From NCBI GenBank assembly GCA_029194675.1, contig JARFXP010000003.1:186001-250000 (forward strand): DNA of 64,000 nucleotides, read 5' to 3'. The first letter of the stretch is position 1. Each line of letters begins with the position of its first letter. A model generated the notes under the pieces. It saw only the letters and a program-made list of their open reading frames with translations. It did no database searches and was not told where the DNA came from. Made by a program: the position numbers and the translations under genes. Positions 50,684 to 57,017 of the stretch are shown here, in pieces. The DNA comes from Nitrospira sp. Lineage in GTDB: Bacteria; Nitrospirota; Nitrospiria; Nitrospirales; Nitrospiraceae.

Positions 50684-50909
50684 TCACTTTACAGCAGGCG
50701 CTAAAAATTCAGGTGATCGGTTTCGATGTGAACCGGCCAGCAGTGTTCTGAGGCGGACGAGGTCAATGGCTTCAATGCGGTGATTGTCGCGACCGGTGAC
50801 CGTGGTGGCCATGATGAGGGCATTGAGGATCGCTTCTTCCGTGGCCTCGACCGTCGCTGCGAAGAGCGGATTGAGATGAGTGTCGGCGAGATGCGTCAGG
50901 TGAGATCTT
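50684..50909 (-). pseudogene. Fragment of a second P1-family peptidase gene (3' end)
   Basis: On the minus strand the frame reads LTHLADTHLNPLFAATVEAT and continues EEAILNALIMATTVTGRDNH, matching the C-terminal ~55 residues of the intact peptidase at 55791-57017 (HLADPHLNPLFAATVEAT...), then runs ~20 codons to a stop at 50684. The DNA match (50771-50906 to 55842-55977) is ~85% identical. The 5' part is missing; the protease/radical-SAM cluster begins immediately beyond. Confidence 0.85.
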
Positions 50910-50936
50910 CATTGACCACACCCGCAGTGCGGATAC

Positions 50937-51570
50937 TTAGTTAGCTTGGACGCGGAAGCAGAGAATCGAAACGATGCGAAGTTCGCCAGGCGCGAGCGGT
51001 TCGATGAGGTGTGGGACTAGGCCGCCGAACACTCACGGCTCCTGCGTCGGGCGTGGCGCGAATGCGGGAGAGCGGCTCATGCTGGCGCTCTGGGTAAAAG
51101 CGCGTGAAGCTGCCGTTACTTCCATCGCGGTGGCGATCGAGGAGGCAGGTAACAACAGAGATATCGCACGTTTCGATGTCGCGATGGAGTGCGAGGTGGT
51201 TACCGGGGCGAGCGCAGTAAGTGTAGATGCCACTTTCGCCGCTTGGGCGCACGGGGGCATTGCAGATTTCGGCGAGGAAATGCGCGGTCTCAGGGTTACG
51301 ATAAAATGCCGCCTGCTCACGGCCGCCGCCTGTGCTGATGAAACGGCGTGCTGGGTTTCCGCCTCGCACCTCCTCGTCATCGACGGTAGCAATGGCGCTG
51401 GCGACAGCACTGTGGAGGCAAAGGCGCGATTCCACCAGGAGGCGTGAGCACGCATTGGCATCAGGAAAGTAATCAAATATCGCACGGCCTCCGTTTTTCA
51501 TCAGCCCGGAATCGCGTATGTCGCAGGGCAGGCGCTGCGGATTGCCGGTGATGGTGTGTGTACCGTACAC
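50937..51570 (-). pseudogene. 2OG-Fe(II) oxygenase-like gene with a single-base frameshift
   Basis: The main frame (209 codons from GTG 51570; ATG 51501 is the alternative start) has the prolyl-hydroxylase-like core GIYTYCARPGNHLALHRDIE with an HxD iron motif and CDISVVTCLL. After AGAVSV near 51039 it goes off pattern. The neighbouring frame continues with FGGLVPHLIEPLAPGELRIV and ends SILCFRVQAN at 50937, which carries the distal His and Arg expected for the fold. Inserting one T at ~51039 restores a continuous protein. So this is either a recent pseudogene or a sequencing error. It follows the propeptide-like gene by eight bases. Confidence 0.65.
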
Positions 51571-51578
51571 GGAGAGAG

Positions 51579-51992
51579 TTACATAAAGCTCGAAGCGGTG
51601 CCCGGCCCGAAGTCGGGTGGTGGTGTGAACGTAACTGCAGCGATTTGCGACCGGAGGGCGGACGGAATTTTTTCTGCCGCGAGCTCATAGCCCTCGCCCT
51701 CGAACTGCACCTCGCCGCCAGCCTCCTGAAGTTTTATATGGAAGCACGACTCGAAAAGCCGTACGGGGCCGGTGATCGACATGCTATTACCGACGCATCC
51801 GCCGACGTCGAAGCCCATGCTGCGCAACTCACCGGAGACCCGAACGATAGTCTCGGCGGACGGCGCCCACTCGCGGATGTTCTCCGATGTGATGCGCGTT
51901 TGCGGCCCGGGGCTTGCACCGCTGGCAGCAACAAGGACAACTTGGGCAGAGACGATTTGTTTGAGGTCCATCGGTATTGAAACGGGTTTCAT
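51579..51992 (-). CDS. Stand-alone protein resembling the protease propeptide
   Basis: A 137-residue protein that lines up with the N-terminal propeptide of the S8 protease in the same cluster: ITSENIREW...ETIVRVSGELRSMGFDV...SMSITGPVRLFESCFHIKL against ISVETVANF...EVVVRAVNRLRDAGFQV...TINIAGSQATYERAFNTRL. It contains no protease domain and ends ...PDFGPGTASSFM. The pattern is that of activation domains of subtilisin/sedolisin proteases. ATG 51992 shares a base with the radical SAM stop (TGATG), so it is translationally coupled. It could act as a chaperone, inhibitor or modification substrate; this is inference. Confidence 0.6.
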   Translation of the reverse strand: MKPVSIPMDLKQIVSAQVVLVAASGASPGPQTRITSENIREWAPSAETIVRVSGELRSMGFDVGGCVGNSMSITGPVRLFESCFHIKLQEAGGEVQFEGEGYELAAEKIPSALRSQIAAVTFTPPPDFGPGTASSFM

Positions 51993-53553
51993 CACACACG
52001 GTCCGCTTGCCACGTTTTGACCCATGGGCTGGTTTGCATGAAATCCAGCTCATTGGCGTGGGGCGTTTCGCGGACGCGCACGGCGAGGCTCAGCCAGTTA
52101 CGCCCTTCAGTAAGCATGAGCCTGTTTGCTACGAGCGAGTCGAGAAAGGCGCGAACGCCCTTATCCGTGATTTCCAGGCCGGGCGACTGTTCGCGCAGGT
52201 GTCGCATGATTGCCACGAACGGACGGAACGCATCGCAAAACTCGTACGCCGCCGCCTCGCTGCCGGACAGATTGATCTCACGCATCGTCGCGCCAGGCCT
52301 GGTGTCGCGCAGTACCAGTGAGCCGTCAGGCCGTTGCACCGAGCAAAGCAGTCCCCGCTTTTCCTTTTGCCGCCACGCCTCGGCAAAATGAATCACATCG
52401 TCCGCGTACCCGGCGGGTGCCTCGCCGGAGCGGTAGTCGAAATCGAAATGATATGCAATGTGCATCAGACTCTCGTGTGGGAATGGATACAAAAACATGT
52501 AAGGTTTCATTGGCCGGACGTTGATCAGCCCAAACTCCTCGGACTTCGTAAAGTACGGGCTGAAGCGATCCATCCGAATCGGCCCACAAGCCACGGGCGG
52601 GTCGAGAAACTCGATGGCGGGAAGCATTGCCAGCATTTCCTCGTAATCTTCACGCGTCTCGCCGGGGAAGCCGTAGAGGATATTCCAATCCACGCCAATC
52701 CCATACTCCCGGCACCACTTGAGCAATTGCACGTTGCGAAGTCCGCAAGTCCCCTTCCCTATCAGTTTGAGCACATGATCGCTCAAACTCTCAATGCCTG
52801 GCTGGATGCGTGTCACGCCGGGGGCCCGCAGCGCCGAGACTTGCGCCCGCGTCAGATTCGCCTTAACCACATAGAAAATCTCCCACGGCCTTCCGTCCGC
52901 CGCCAAGGCCGGCAGGAGATCCAAAAAATAGCGCATGTCTAGAATATTATCAACCACCTCAATACGATCCGTCTGCCATTGGTCCGACAGTTGTTGCATC
53001 TCCTCAAACGCGCGCGCACCGCTCTTGCTGCGGTACGCCATCGTCGCTCCGTTCAGCCCGCAAAACGTGCAGTGCGACTTGTCGCCCCACCAACAGCCGC
53101 GTGAAGTCTCGATCAGCACCGTCGGCATCGTCGCAAGCGCGGCGCTCTGCGCTGTGCCCGCAAGGAGTAGCGCGGCAAGCGCGGGGAAACTTTCATCCGC
53201 TTCACCGGGGCACACGTAGTCCACAGAGCCGAACTGCTGATGCAGTTCCTCGCCCATCTCGCTTCCCAGTTCGCCCCGCCGAATACGGTGGCGATGTAAG
53301 CACTATCTGTCGCAGAGCGTGGACCGTAGAGTGCCTCGGCAAAACACCAATCACCGGCAAATGCCACGTAGGGCAATGTGGAAGAAATCCATTGGTATTC
53401 TTCCACCCCGATGAAATCCACGAAGGTGAACGATGGATAGCGCACAACGCACGCAATGCCGTCGCGCGTGAGCCGCGCCTTGAGCAAGCTCAACCCGAGA
53501 GCCGGACGCTCCATCGTCCCGAAGGGCATACTGAGAAGAAGGATTTTTTTCAT
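51992..53553 (-). CDS. Cobalamin-binding radical SAM enzyme, RiPP-maturase type (frameshifted)
   Basis: Two overlapping frames make one family-typical protein. Frame 1 (53553 to ~53262) is the B12-binding-like part, MKKILLLSMPFGTMERPALG to VFGGANWEA. Frame 2 (from 53257) continues MGEELHQQFGSVDYVCPGEA and holds the radical SAM core, with cluster motif RGCWWGDKSHCTFCGLNGAT (Cys-x7-Cys-x2-Cys) followed by MAYRSKSGARAFEE, and a C-terminal domain. This motif is characteristic of 'RiPP maturation radical SAM protein 1' enzymes. One missing base near 53262 (GAAGCGAG where GAAGGCGAG would restore the usual GGANWEGEMG) splits it. Such enzymes modify ribosomal peptides, often by C-methylation. Possible partners: protease tail or propeptide-like protein. 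Confidence 0.8.
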
Positions 53554-53620
53554 TCTTTCGTGTCCAATCTCCACCTTCGCTACAGACTGCCGCTAAGGGG
53601 GGACGGCGGCCAGCATCGAG

Positions 53621-55378
53621 TTACTTGTCCAGCTCGAAATCAGACGTAGCGATCAAGTCCTGCAACGAGGCGACATCTTCCTCCGACAAGGTCGTCTGGC
53701 CCTGTTCAGGCGTGGATTCCTCGGCGGTTTTCACTGTCGCGACTGGCGGGAGGAGAACAACGGGCGCAATAGGCTTAATCGGTTGGATCGGTGTAATGGG
53801 CTGTATGGGTTTGATCGGCTGCACCGGTTTTATGAGGCCAACCGGCGTGATGGGTTGCACAGTGATGGGCTTGATTGGGACGATTGGCCCGAGGCATTGG
53901 ATCTTCGCGGAAAGGACCGCTTTGTGTGCATCGACGAGGCCGTTACCGGTCGAGGCATCCGGACCGACGACGGAAGCGACACCCCCAGGGGTCAGTGCTG
54001 TGGTATTGCAATCGCCGGCCGTGACATCTCGCGCGGTTTTCATCATGATCGTCTTGATTTGCTGCGGCGTGAGTTTCTTACAGGCCTGTTTGATAAGCGC
54101 GGCCACGCCAGCAAGCTGCGGTGCGGCGGCGGACGTGCCGCTGAACGCTGCCCACCCGTCGTTGTTCGTCGTCTCGTCTCCATTCGGGAAGACGCCGCCG
54201 GCCTTCTGTACGTCAATCTGGTCTCCGGGTTCGAGCGGGAGCATGATGTAGTTCGCACCAGGCTTCATCCCCACAAGGCCCGACAGATCCGGCACACGGC
54301 GGTTTGGGTAGATGACGCTGTTGAACCCACTCGCATAGTTCGACGCCCGAAGGCTTTGATCGATATCCATAAAGACACCGCCGGCGGAGATCACATCCGG
54401 ATGCTGGCCGGGGAAGCCCACATGGCCGTTGCCGGCGGAGAAGATGACGGTGATCCCCGCCGCGACCGCTGCCGCGATGGCTGCCGCGAGTGCCTGGTTT
54501 GCGGCGCTGAGCGTGGTACTGGTACCGGTGTCACTACCCCAGCTACAGGTGATGATGTGGGGATTCAATCCCACCGCCGCGTTGAACGCACCTAGCGAAT
54601 TGACGAAATTTATCTTTACCGGTAGCAACTCGACATCCGGCGCACAGGCGAAAATGTTCGCCGATTCGCCGGTGCCGTGCCCGCTCTCATCTGCAAGCGA
54701 GTTTGCGGCACCCGGCCCAAGCACCACAGGCGCTGCGCGGTAGCCCCGATTGACAAAAAACGGATGCTTGAACCACCCACTGTCCACCATTGCGACCTTG
54801 ATTCCCTTACCGGTGATGCCCGACCGATGCGCCTTGTCCGCGTTGCAGCCAAGCGAGACCCCCGCCGGCACGTCGAGGTGCCAATAGGCCTTGTGCGGTG
54901 CGAACATCGACGTCGCCATCGGGTACACCGGTTCCTCGATGGCCACGCCCTCGATCAGATCGCCCATGGTGCTTCCTGTCGTCGCGATGAGACCTGACAT
55001 CTCCGTTTCAGGACAGTCGATAAACGTCCCTGTGTCACGCACTCCACCAGGCTTAATGACGGGCCGTTCCTCGGCCACGAGCCTGGTGTTGAAGGCTCGT
55101 TCATATGTTGCTTGCGAGCCGGCGATGTTGATTGTCATGGGTGATATCTGGAGCACCTGGAATCCCGCATCCCTCAGCCGGTTGACCGCACGGACTACGA
55201 CTTCTTGCTCTGACAAGAAGTTGGCCACAGTTTCGACGCTGATCTGATTCCCCACCTCAAACATTGACACGCCACCCACTGAGAATGGAGAGGCATTGGC
55301 ATAAATGACCTTCGGGATAGCAGGTTGAGTTTTCTTTTTGACGTGAATAGTTGGCCCTTTCGCTTTCTTGGTGCGCAT
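53621..55378 (-). CDS. Subtilisin-like (S8) protease with Pro/Lys/Ile repeat tail
   Basis: A ~585-residue protease. A basic N-terminus (RTKKAKGPTIHVKKKTQ) with no signal peptide is followed by a propeptide (~30-150) and an S8 domain with catalytic D199 (VAMVDSGW), H234 (DESGHGTGES), N317 (FSAGNGH) and S416 (FSGTSAAAPQ). Residues ~500-545 are a repeat of PIKPI/PITPV type units, and the last ~30 residues are acidic (LSEEDVASLQDLIATSDFEL). ATG 55378 follows AAGGAGGG. It is the first gene of a four-gene cluster with a radical SAM maturase. The absence of a signal suggests a cytoplasmic protein or unusual export. Confidence 0.85.
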   Translation of the reverse strand: MRTKKAKGPTIHVKKKTQPAIPKVIYANASPFSVGGVSMFEVGNQISVETVANFLSEQEVVVRAVNRLRDAGFQVLQISPMTINIAGSQATYERAFNTRLVAEERPVIKPGGVRDTGTFIDCPETEMSGLIATTGSTMGDLIEGVAIEEPVYPMATSMFAPHKAYWHLDVPAGVSLGCNADKAHRSGITGKGIKVAMVDSGWFKHPFFVNRGYRAAPVVLGPGAANSLADESGHGTGESANIFACAPDVELLPVKINFVNSLGAFNAAVGLNPHIITCSWGSDTGTSTTLSAANQALAAAIAAAVAAGITVIFSAGNGHVGFPGQHPDVISAGGVFMDIDQSLRASNYASGFNSVIYPNRRVPDLSGLVGMKPGANYIMLPLEPGDQIDVQKAGGVFPNGDETTNNDGWAAFSGTSAAAPQLAGVAALIKQACKKLTPQQIKTIMMKTARDVTAGDCNTTALTPGGVASVVGPDASTGNGLVDAHKAVLSAKIQCLGPIVPIKPITVQPITPVGLIKPVQPIKPIQPITPIQPIKPIAPVVLLPPVATVKTAEESTPEQGQTTLSEEDVASLQDLIATSDFELDK

Positions 55379-55790
55379 AAATCCCTCCTTGAGTTGTGTT
55401 GGATTTGTTCGCCCACATGGAGACCGAAGCACGGATTCATCACCGGCGATATCCAGATTTTCATATTGTCTCTTCTAGATAGCGAGGCAATTGCTGTGCC
55501 GACCGTTTTGGATTAGGAGATTTCCCCGATTATGAATATCAGCTACATTTCGAGCCTATTCTGCGAAGGGCTATTACCCTTTCCTTGCATTGCGAGTCCG
55601 CTGGAGAATCTAAAATGATTCTACGGTGAATCGGTTTTGATACAGGCGCCTTGCAGCATTTGGGGAGAGAGAATGTTGCGCGGGAAACATCTACAGACAG
55701 TTACGACTTGAGAGATTGATTCTCACGCTTTATAGCGTGGAAATCTTCATCATTCAAAGCGGTCCTTTCTTGACCTTGAAGTCACGTGAC
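55379..55790. other. Intergenic region upstream of the protease cluster
   Basis: No gene seen. It presumably carries the cluster promoter on the minus strand. It is more AT-rich than the flanking genes (for example 55460-55600) and contains short repeats of TTGATT/GATT, but no clear terminator for the preceding peptidase gene. Confidence 0.4.
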
Positions 55791-57017
55791 TCAATGACGG
55801 GCATCGAGCAGGAGTTTCTTCAAGCGATCAAGATCGATCGCTTCAATGCGGTGATTGTCGCGGCCGGTAACCGTGGTGGCCATGGTGAGTGCATTGAGAA
55901 TGGCCTCTTCGGTGGCCTCGACCGTCGCTGCGAAGAGCGGATTCAGATGGGGGTCGGCGAGATGTGTCAAATTGTAGGTGGGAGCTGTCGGATAGTGTGG
56001 AATCACGTTGGCGGTGGAGAAAGCCAGTATGAAATCCCCGCTTCCGTGGCGCACAGTCGAGCCGGTGCGGGCCAGACCGAGCGCCGCATGTTTGGCCAGC
56101 CTGGTGAGCTGCCGCCCATCAAGCGGAGCATCGGTAGCGATCACGATGATGATGGAGCCTTCGCTCTGGCCAGGCACGACCGCTTCGGAGACCTGTTGCG
56201 GCGGATCATAGAGCTTTCCGACAGGGACCCCAGCAACCACCAGTTCCGGTTTTCGTCCGTGGTTCGCGTTGACCAGTACTCCCACCGTATAGCCACCTTC
56301 CTTCTCGGACAATGTTCTCGATGACGTGCCGATGCCGCCTTTGAACCCATAAGACACCATTCCCGTGCCGGCGCCGACCGTGCCTTCGCCAACCGGCCCG
56401 CCGCCTGCGCCATCGAGCGCGGTCATCACGTCTTGCTCCGACACGTGACGCCCCTGAATGTCGTTCAACCTTCCATCGTCGCATTCAGCTACAACCGGTG
56501 TAAGCGTATCGTCCTCGATCCCGATCGCCGGATATTGCTTGATCATCCAACTCATCACGCCGTTGGCCACGCGTGGAACGTTGAGCGTATTCGTGAGCGC
56601 GATGGGATATTCAAGAAATCCTGACTCGGCCACCCAGGCGAGGCCGGTCATCTCACCGGTACCATTGAGAACGAACGAGCCTGCCGGAACCTTCTTGTGC
56701 CAGACGTCGTCGCGTGGAATGATGACCGTCACCCCTGTGCGAATGGGGCCCTGCCCTGGCTTTAAAGGCCCCTCGCCGGAGATCAACGTGGTATGGCCGA
56801 CCTTTACGCCTGCAATGTCGGTAATCGCGTTGAGGGGGCCAGGCGGATACTGTCCGACGGCGATCCCCAAGTCACGCAGACGGTGGCGTTCTTGTTTCGG
56901 TTCTGCTGCGGCGGTGGAGAGACAACCAGCAAGCAGTGCAGCCGCGCAGGACAGCACCAGCAGCCTAGCCGCCTGCCGACCACCCACTCCGACGAAATGT
57001 AGAGACCTAGATGTCAT
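55791..57017 (-). CDS. P1-family (DmpA-type) peptidase, lipoprotein
   Basis: A 408-residue Ntn-type hydrolase of the DmpA/BapA family. It has a lipoprotein signal (LLVLSCAAALLAGC), family start GPLNAITDIAGVKVGHTTLI, RTGVTVIIP, and the self-cleavage/nucleophile region YGFKGGIGTSSRTL with the new N-terminal Thr or Ser. Later motifs are GSIIIVIATDAPLDGRQL and LNPLFAATVEATEEAILNAL. ATG 57017 overlaps the nuclease gene by 11 bases; the track frame upstream is out-of-frame sequence of that gene. Known relatives release N-terminal amino acids from short peptides. A fragment of a second copy lies at 50684-50909. Confidence 0.85.
   Translation of the reverse strand: MTSRSLHFVGVGGRQAARLLVLSCAAALLAGCLSTAAAEPKQERHRLRDLGIAVGQYPPGPLNAITDIAGVKVGHTTLISGEGPLKPGQGPIRTGVTVIIPRDDVWHKKVPAGSFVLNGTGEMTGLAWVAESGFLEYPIALTNTLNVPRVANGVMSWMIKQYPAIGIEDDTLTPVVAECDDGRLNDIQGRHVSEQDVMTALDGAGGGPVGEGTVGAGTGMVSYGFKGGIGTSSRTLSEKEGGYTVGVLVNANHGRKPELVVAGVPVGKLYDPPQQVSEAVVPGQSEGSIIIVIATDAPLDGRQLTRLAKHAALGLARTGSTVRHGSGDFILAFSTANVIPHYPTAPTYNLTHLADPHLNPLFAATVEATEEAILNALTMATTVTGRDNHRIEAIDLDRLKKLLLDARH

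Follow-up and report, generated by a model that had tools for sequence, protein, structure and literature searches.

In the 64,000-nt stretch of Nitrospira sp. DNA analysed here (the window), genes for an S8 subtilase, a B12-radical SAM enzyme, a free prodomain protein and a 2OG-Fe(II) oxygenase-like protein form a cluster that, judged by comparison of sequences, is real, conserved, rare and mobile. Its content makes it a good candidate for a RiPP-like system whose putative substrate would, unusually, be borne by a protease: with a probability of roughly 40%, we favor a RiPP-like pathway with a substrate that is part of the protease itself, in the form of a C-terminal tail. More tentatively still, the subtilase would double as a RiPP precursor whose own Pro/Ile/Val tail is C-methylated and hydroxylated by the clustered enzymes, with the free prodomain copy acting as regulator. 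The four genes, their common strand and their order are as given in a preliminary description of this DNA, which had also treated all of them as working; the radical SAM and 2OG genes are however broken in the window, so that this copy is unable to run the pathway as drawn.

Genes of the cluster in the window

The S8 protease assignment is confirmed by PF00082 (84.6 bits, cut-off 21.8), and the protein combines a sedolisin-type prodomain (at about residues 24-110) with a catalytic domain (about residues 165-492) in which D199, H234, N317 and S416 are conserved, the catalytic D199, H234 and S416 being invariant. The radical SAM gene, which contains CWWGDKSHCTFCGLNG, is equally well founded as to family, scoring 438.8 bits against TIGR03975 (cut-off 281.85) with the window fragment alone; its Cx7Cx2C motif reads CWWGDKSHCTFC. 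The gene is split between two frames, one holding TIGR03975 positions 1-86 and the other about 169-209 and 255-606, and its deletions and missing base were located by alignment with the gammaproteobacterial ortholog. Because of this split and these deletions a large part of the B12-binding domain has gone. Profile positions about 87-168, which belong to the N-terminal region, are absent, and the window copy holds no complete domain of this type. The Brocadia and planctomycete copies match TIGR03975 over its full length (671 and 644.2 bits, respectively). A weak PqqD-like match at the C-terminus of the intact Brocadia enzyme (E 0.002 and E 0.036) is compatible with a peptide-recognition element; no such end was seen in the planctomycete enzyme.

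The protein previously called propeptide-like shares homology with the prodomain of the protease itself (hhalign against the S8 N-terminal domain: probability 98.7%, E 2.3e-16), although it reaches only 17.5 bits against PF09286 (S53-type prodomain), below the gathering score of 23.5. In a low-confidence model (mean pLDDT 53), its fold comes closest to pro-kumamolisin (Z 7.5) and to the TPP1 precursor (Z 6.7-6.8), with all other matches scoring lower. As for the fourth gene, an oxygenase-like frame does exist, but in the window it gave no match in a Pfam search, has lost 32 nt and is frameshifted, with the frame changing before the distal His and the last metal-binding region. The intact planctomycete ortholog contains both the HxD and the distal His, and scores 23.7 bits against PF13640, under the cut-off of 27.

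Table 1. Features of the window; strand is given as (-) for minus and (.) for unstranded
Feature	Position	Strand	Remarks
Four-gene cluster (S8 subtilase, B12-radical SAM, free prodomain, 2OG-oxygenase-like gene)	50937-55378	(-)	
S8 subtilase, 585 aa	53621..55378	(-)	intact; basic N-terminus, prodomain, catalytic domain, tail
Pro/Ile/Val-rich tail linker, residues 493-563	53690..53902	(-)	candidate substrate region; P 23%, I+V 28%
C-terminal motif LSEEDVASLQDLIATSDFELDK	53624..53689	(-)	candidate recognition helix; conserved in all radical-SAM-linked orthologs
TIGR03975 radical SAM, N-terminal fragment	53282..53553	(-)	
TIGR03975 radical SAM, C-terminal fragment	51992..53257	(-)	radical SAM core, Cx7Cx2C motif, weak PqqD-like end
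Radical SAM lesions	53145..53308	(-)	deletions of about 210 nt (near 53298-53308) and about 135 nt (near 53151); 1-nt shift near 53263
Free prodomain protein, 130 aa	51579..51971	(-)	intact; alternative upstream start 52025
2OG-Fe(II) oxygenase-like gene	50937..51501	(-)	open frame 50941-51570; frameshifted by 32-nt deletion near 51031
Inserted segment with cluster, ~4.9 kb	50899..55795	(.)	missing at this site in sister species
Direct repeat copy A, duplicated 3' end of S58 peptidase gene	50725..50898	(.)	83% identical to copy B
Direct repeat copy B, 3' end of intact S58 peptidase gene	55796..55969	(.)	

Distribution and the protease tail

A scan of genome contigs revealed orthologous loci in Candidatus Brocadia carolinensis, a gammaproteobacterial MAG and a Bryobacteraceae MAG (S8 85%, 74% and 65% identical, respectively), and a fifth locus was found by searching a sample of the Brocadia genome's phylum, in planctomycete G873 (S8 52% identical; radical SAM about 52% identical to that of Brocadia). 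The order S8 - radical SAM - free prodomain (- 2OG) recurs in these four genomes, from at least three phyla: all four genes are present in Brocadia, the gammaproteobacterial MAG and the planctomycete, each being a single open frame in the last, and the first three in the Bryobacteraceae locus, which is without a 2OG gene. Since orthologous clusters exist in other phyla, the grouping is not due to chance, and the co-occurrence of protease and radical SAM genes elsewhere, on which the preliminary description had made its reading depend, is borne out. No orthologs were found in 58 relatives of the window genome, none beyond those named, save remote or tail-less ones, in samples of 349, 369, 343, 296, 277 and 279 genomes, and no relative among viral contigs and phage records; one further match (L028) was discarded, since here a Pro-rich stretch of some unrelated protein had matched by chance. 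A literature search covering a minority of subscription journals, in which TIGR03975 is named by two papers only, returned no description of this arrangement or of the protease and free prodomain module defined below.

Directly after the Brocadia cluster (L025 12700-16943) lie genes for HlyD, an ABC ATPase and MacB/FtsX-type permeases, a possible exporter in which one permease is apparently frameshifted; the absence of a transporter noted in the preliminary description may not extend to this genome.

Among the loci examined, S8 tails, which are 93-128 residues long, occur only where a radical SAM gene is present: tail and gene are found together at five of five loci and are both absent at eight of eight (within the 5-10 kb examined). 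The tail linkers of the radical-SAM-linked loci consist of 23-33% Pro and 18-28% Ile+Val and are followed by LS[DE]ED and a conserved amphipathic stretch; the residue pattern of the tail is not the same across lineages, and it is the C-terminal motif that is conserved while the linker varies. In the predicted S8 structure (mean pLDDT 31.6) the terminal helix is a low-confidence hint only. A resemblance of the motif to pheganomycin-family precursors, perceived by eye only, was set aside.

Further S8 relatives, with identities of 33-63%, come from Calothrix, Nonomuraea, Rhizobium, Mesorhizobium and Paenibacillus, and also from two Acidobacteriota and from one genome (G592) in the sample of the gammaproteobacterial class. 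The S8 genes of Calothrix, G592 and G1470 have a free prodomain gene upstream, and that of Nonomuraea a candidate. Protease and free prodomain are found together in other phyla without a radical SAM gene, and there the proteases are tail-less. By this comparison the pair is an independent module of several phyla, which is defined here and whose core would be a fused-prodomain protease with a trans-acting copy, in parallel to free propeptide-like inhibitors.

The tailed proteins may represent a single clade, which reduces the association of tail and radical SAM gene to few independent events, perhaps one or two; a tail-trimmed tree does place the tail-bearers in one clade (support 70/85). A joint loss of both in Acidobacteriota G1619, which is nested in a 13-row tree (82/86), is not claimed in view of that grouping.

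Candidate substrates and proposed pathway

The preliminary description had noted the absence of a classical precursor, and indeed a six-frame comparison of the regions around the five clusters found no shared small ORF outside them. For this reason the tail is the leading candidate substrate, and the C-terminal end of the free prodomain the second. In annotated plasmid loci of TIGR03975 enzymes, the upstream neighbor is a pheganomycin-family precursor, an NHLP-clan protein or an epimerase beside Nif11 precursors; further such loci are similar, with a hypothetical protein or an acetyltransferase, and one Niallia locus has no precursor upstream. Precursor genes lie just upstream in most of the annotated TIGR03975 loci examined, and here that place is taken by the tailed protease, at a distance of 43 nt from the radical SAM gene in Brocadia and 142 nt in Bryobacteraceae.

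In the pathway that we propose, the radical SAM enzyme would dock on the C-terminal motif of the protease, perhaps via its weakly PqqD-like end, and C-methylate side chains of the tail; these would be Ile and Val by analogy with PoyC, a Cx7Cx2C enzyme for which methylation of both residues at Cβ is reported (PMC11285071). The 2OG enzyme would hydroxylate the tail, and the free prodomain would inhibit or chaperone the protease in trans. The decorated tail might then remain on the protein or be cut away, perhaps by the protease, with the neighboring ABC exporter as a possible way out in Brocadia. Docking, methylation, hydroxylation, trans-inhibition and release or export are all steps that we infer. 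If the proposal is correct, RiPP chemistry would reach from small dedicated precursors to the tail of a working protease. It would also offer a natural example of a protein tail whose radical C-methylation may govern proteolysis, or which proteolysis may set free; the unbroken planctomycete cluster lends itself to a direct test.

The preliminary description also pointed to the C-terminal ends of protease and propeptide-like protein as places to look for conservation, and conserved ends are present in both at the radical-SAM-linked loci, the protease tail being missing from relatives without the radical SAM gene. An unlikely alternative makes the free prodomain itself a RiPP-like precursor, with its fold as a large leader and its FGPG-type C-terminal end, which would lie in the protease active site, modified to yield a tuned inhibitor or a released short peptide. 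Its gene is directly downstream of the radical SAM gene, and at all five loci with a radical SAM gene its C-terminus is a stretch containing P-x-x-F-G, which extends further than the ends (EFLP, DFHAL or similar) of most relatives that have no radical SAM gene; proteusin leaders are likewise unusually large and structured (PMC10858898). Yet the extension amounts to only about 6-10 residues, Brocadia reads FGTDTASSF, so that the FGPG part is not strict, and free prodomains also exist without the enzymes.

Less probable again is a role of the S8 protein as a common maturation protease of the QhpE or PatG kind, the true precursor being encoded elsewhere in the genome. Subtilases do take part in the maturation of RiPPs and quinoproteins; QhpC, which a radical SAM enzyme modifies, has its leader cleaved by QhpE (PMC7876137), and contig C13 of the window genome holds another TIGR03975 locus with a PatG-type protease. 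This explanation, however, finds no small ORF shared near any of the clusters, leaves the tail unexplained, and has to accommodate S8 scores far under the cut-offs of the QhpE (NF049966, 33.9 versus 165 bits) and PatA/PatG (TIGR03895, 22.1 versus 421 bits) models.

Pro-rich linkers can also be plain spacers, and such sequences are common in that role. That the tail, whose length varies from 93 to 128 residues, is a mere flexible spacer or targeting tag, and that the two enzymes modify another cellular protein, is nevertheless quite improbable, because the same protease family lacks it when the radical SAM gene is absent and the C-terminal motif is conserved despite the variation of the linker.

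Among known systems, borosins, in which an enzyme carries its own C-terminal core, resemble the favored protease-borne arrangement in that the candidate core forms the C-terminal end of an enzyme; in the present cluster a protease serves as carrier, and modification would fall to separate enzymes. RiPP C-methyltransferases of the PoyC/PoyB type share the above-cut-off TIGR03975 score, the Cx7Cx2C motif and, in intact copies, the B12 and radical SAM domains, but the present gene has a tailed subtilase as its neighbor, and not a precursor of the NHLP, Nif11 or pheganomycin-family kind, and its window copy is broken. The closest characterized radical SAM and subtilisin-like partnership found is that of QhpD and QhpE (PMC7876137), in which both likewise act in the cytoplasm on a clustered protein; QhpD, however, makes thioether cross-links, the S8 score is far below the cut-off of the QhpE model, and no quinoprotein genes were seen in the cluster. 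Cyanobactin PatA/PatG similarly place an S8 protease within a peptide-modification cluster, but besides the gap in score the other modifying enzymes differ and no cyanobactin precursor was identified. Malaria SUB1 and its propeptide-like inhibitor (PMC6993865) offer a parallel for a free prodomain homolog expected to act in trans; the present proteins are bacterial, with a sedolisin-type prodomain fold, a gene beside that of the protease and a putative inhibition.

Insertion and decay in the window genome

The FIST gene, the S58 peptidase gene and a small gene between the two follow one another without interruption in sister species, whereas in the window they are parted by ~4.9 kb, whose interior is without an integrase gene. 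This insertion is bounded by a 174-nt repeat, each copy of which is about 90% identical to the nearest sister, the two being about equally close. Its absence from the sisters, together with the contrast in G+C of the Brocadia cluster (59.8%) with its flanks (42-48%), points to horizontal transfer of the cluster.

Values of dN/dS between window and Brocadia (S8 0.058, radical SAM fragments 0.09-0.15, free prodomain 0.19, 2OG 0.20) indicate that selection on the cluster was purifying until recently; the lesions of the window are therefore young, and decay of both modifying genes has left an intact protease and free prodomain. The Brocadia 2OG gene is frameshifted too, and the gammaproteobacterial copy (L026 820-5590) has frameshifts in S8, radical SAM and 2OG with open neighboring housekeeping genes, so either decay recurs or some MAG sequences contain errors. 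The single-base shift of the window may be due to assembly error, which is harder to invoke for the three deletions of 32 to about 210 nt.

On plasmids of Rhizobium (L038 7999-19680), a tail-less S8 relative is located among folE, purB, queC, queE and nitrile hydratase alpha genes, in what looks like a deazapurine pathway. The second TIGR03975 enzyme of the window genome, on contig C13 (L041, 11576-18599), is intact and 42% identical to the window C-terminal fragment over 352 aa; its neighbors are another B12-radical SAM protein, a PatA/PatG-type protease (723.6 bits) and a Pro/Gly/Trp-rich protein of 184 aa, which contains PTPVVDPGPFPTPIVDPGP, loosely like the planctomycete S8 tail.
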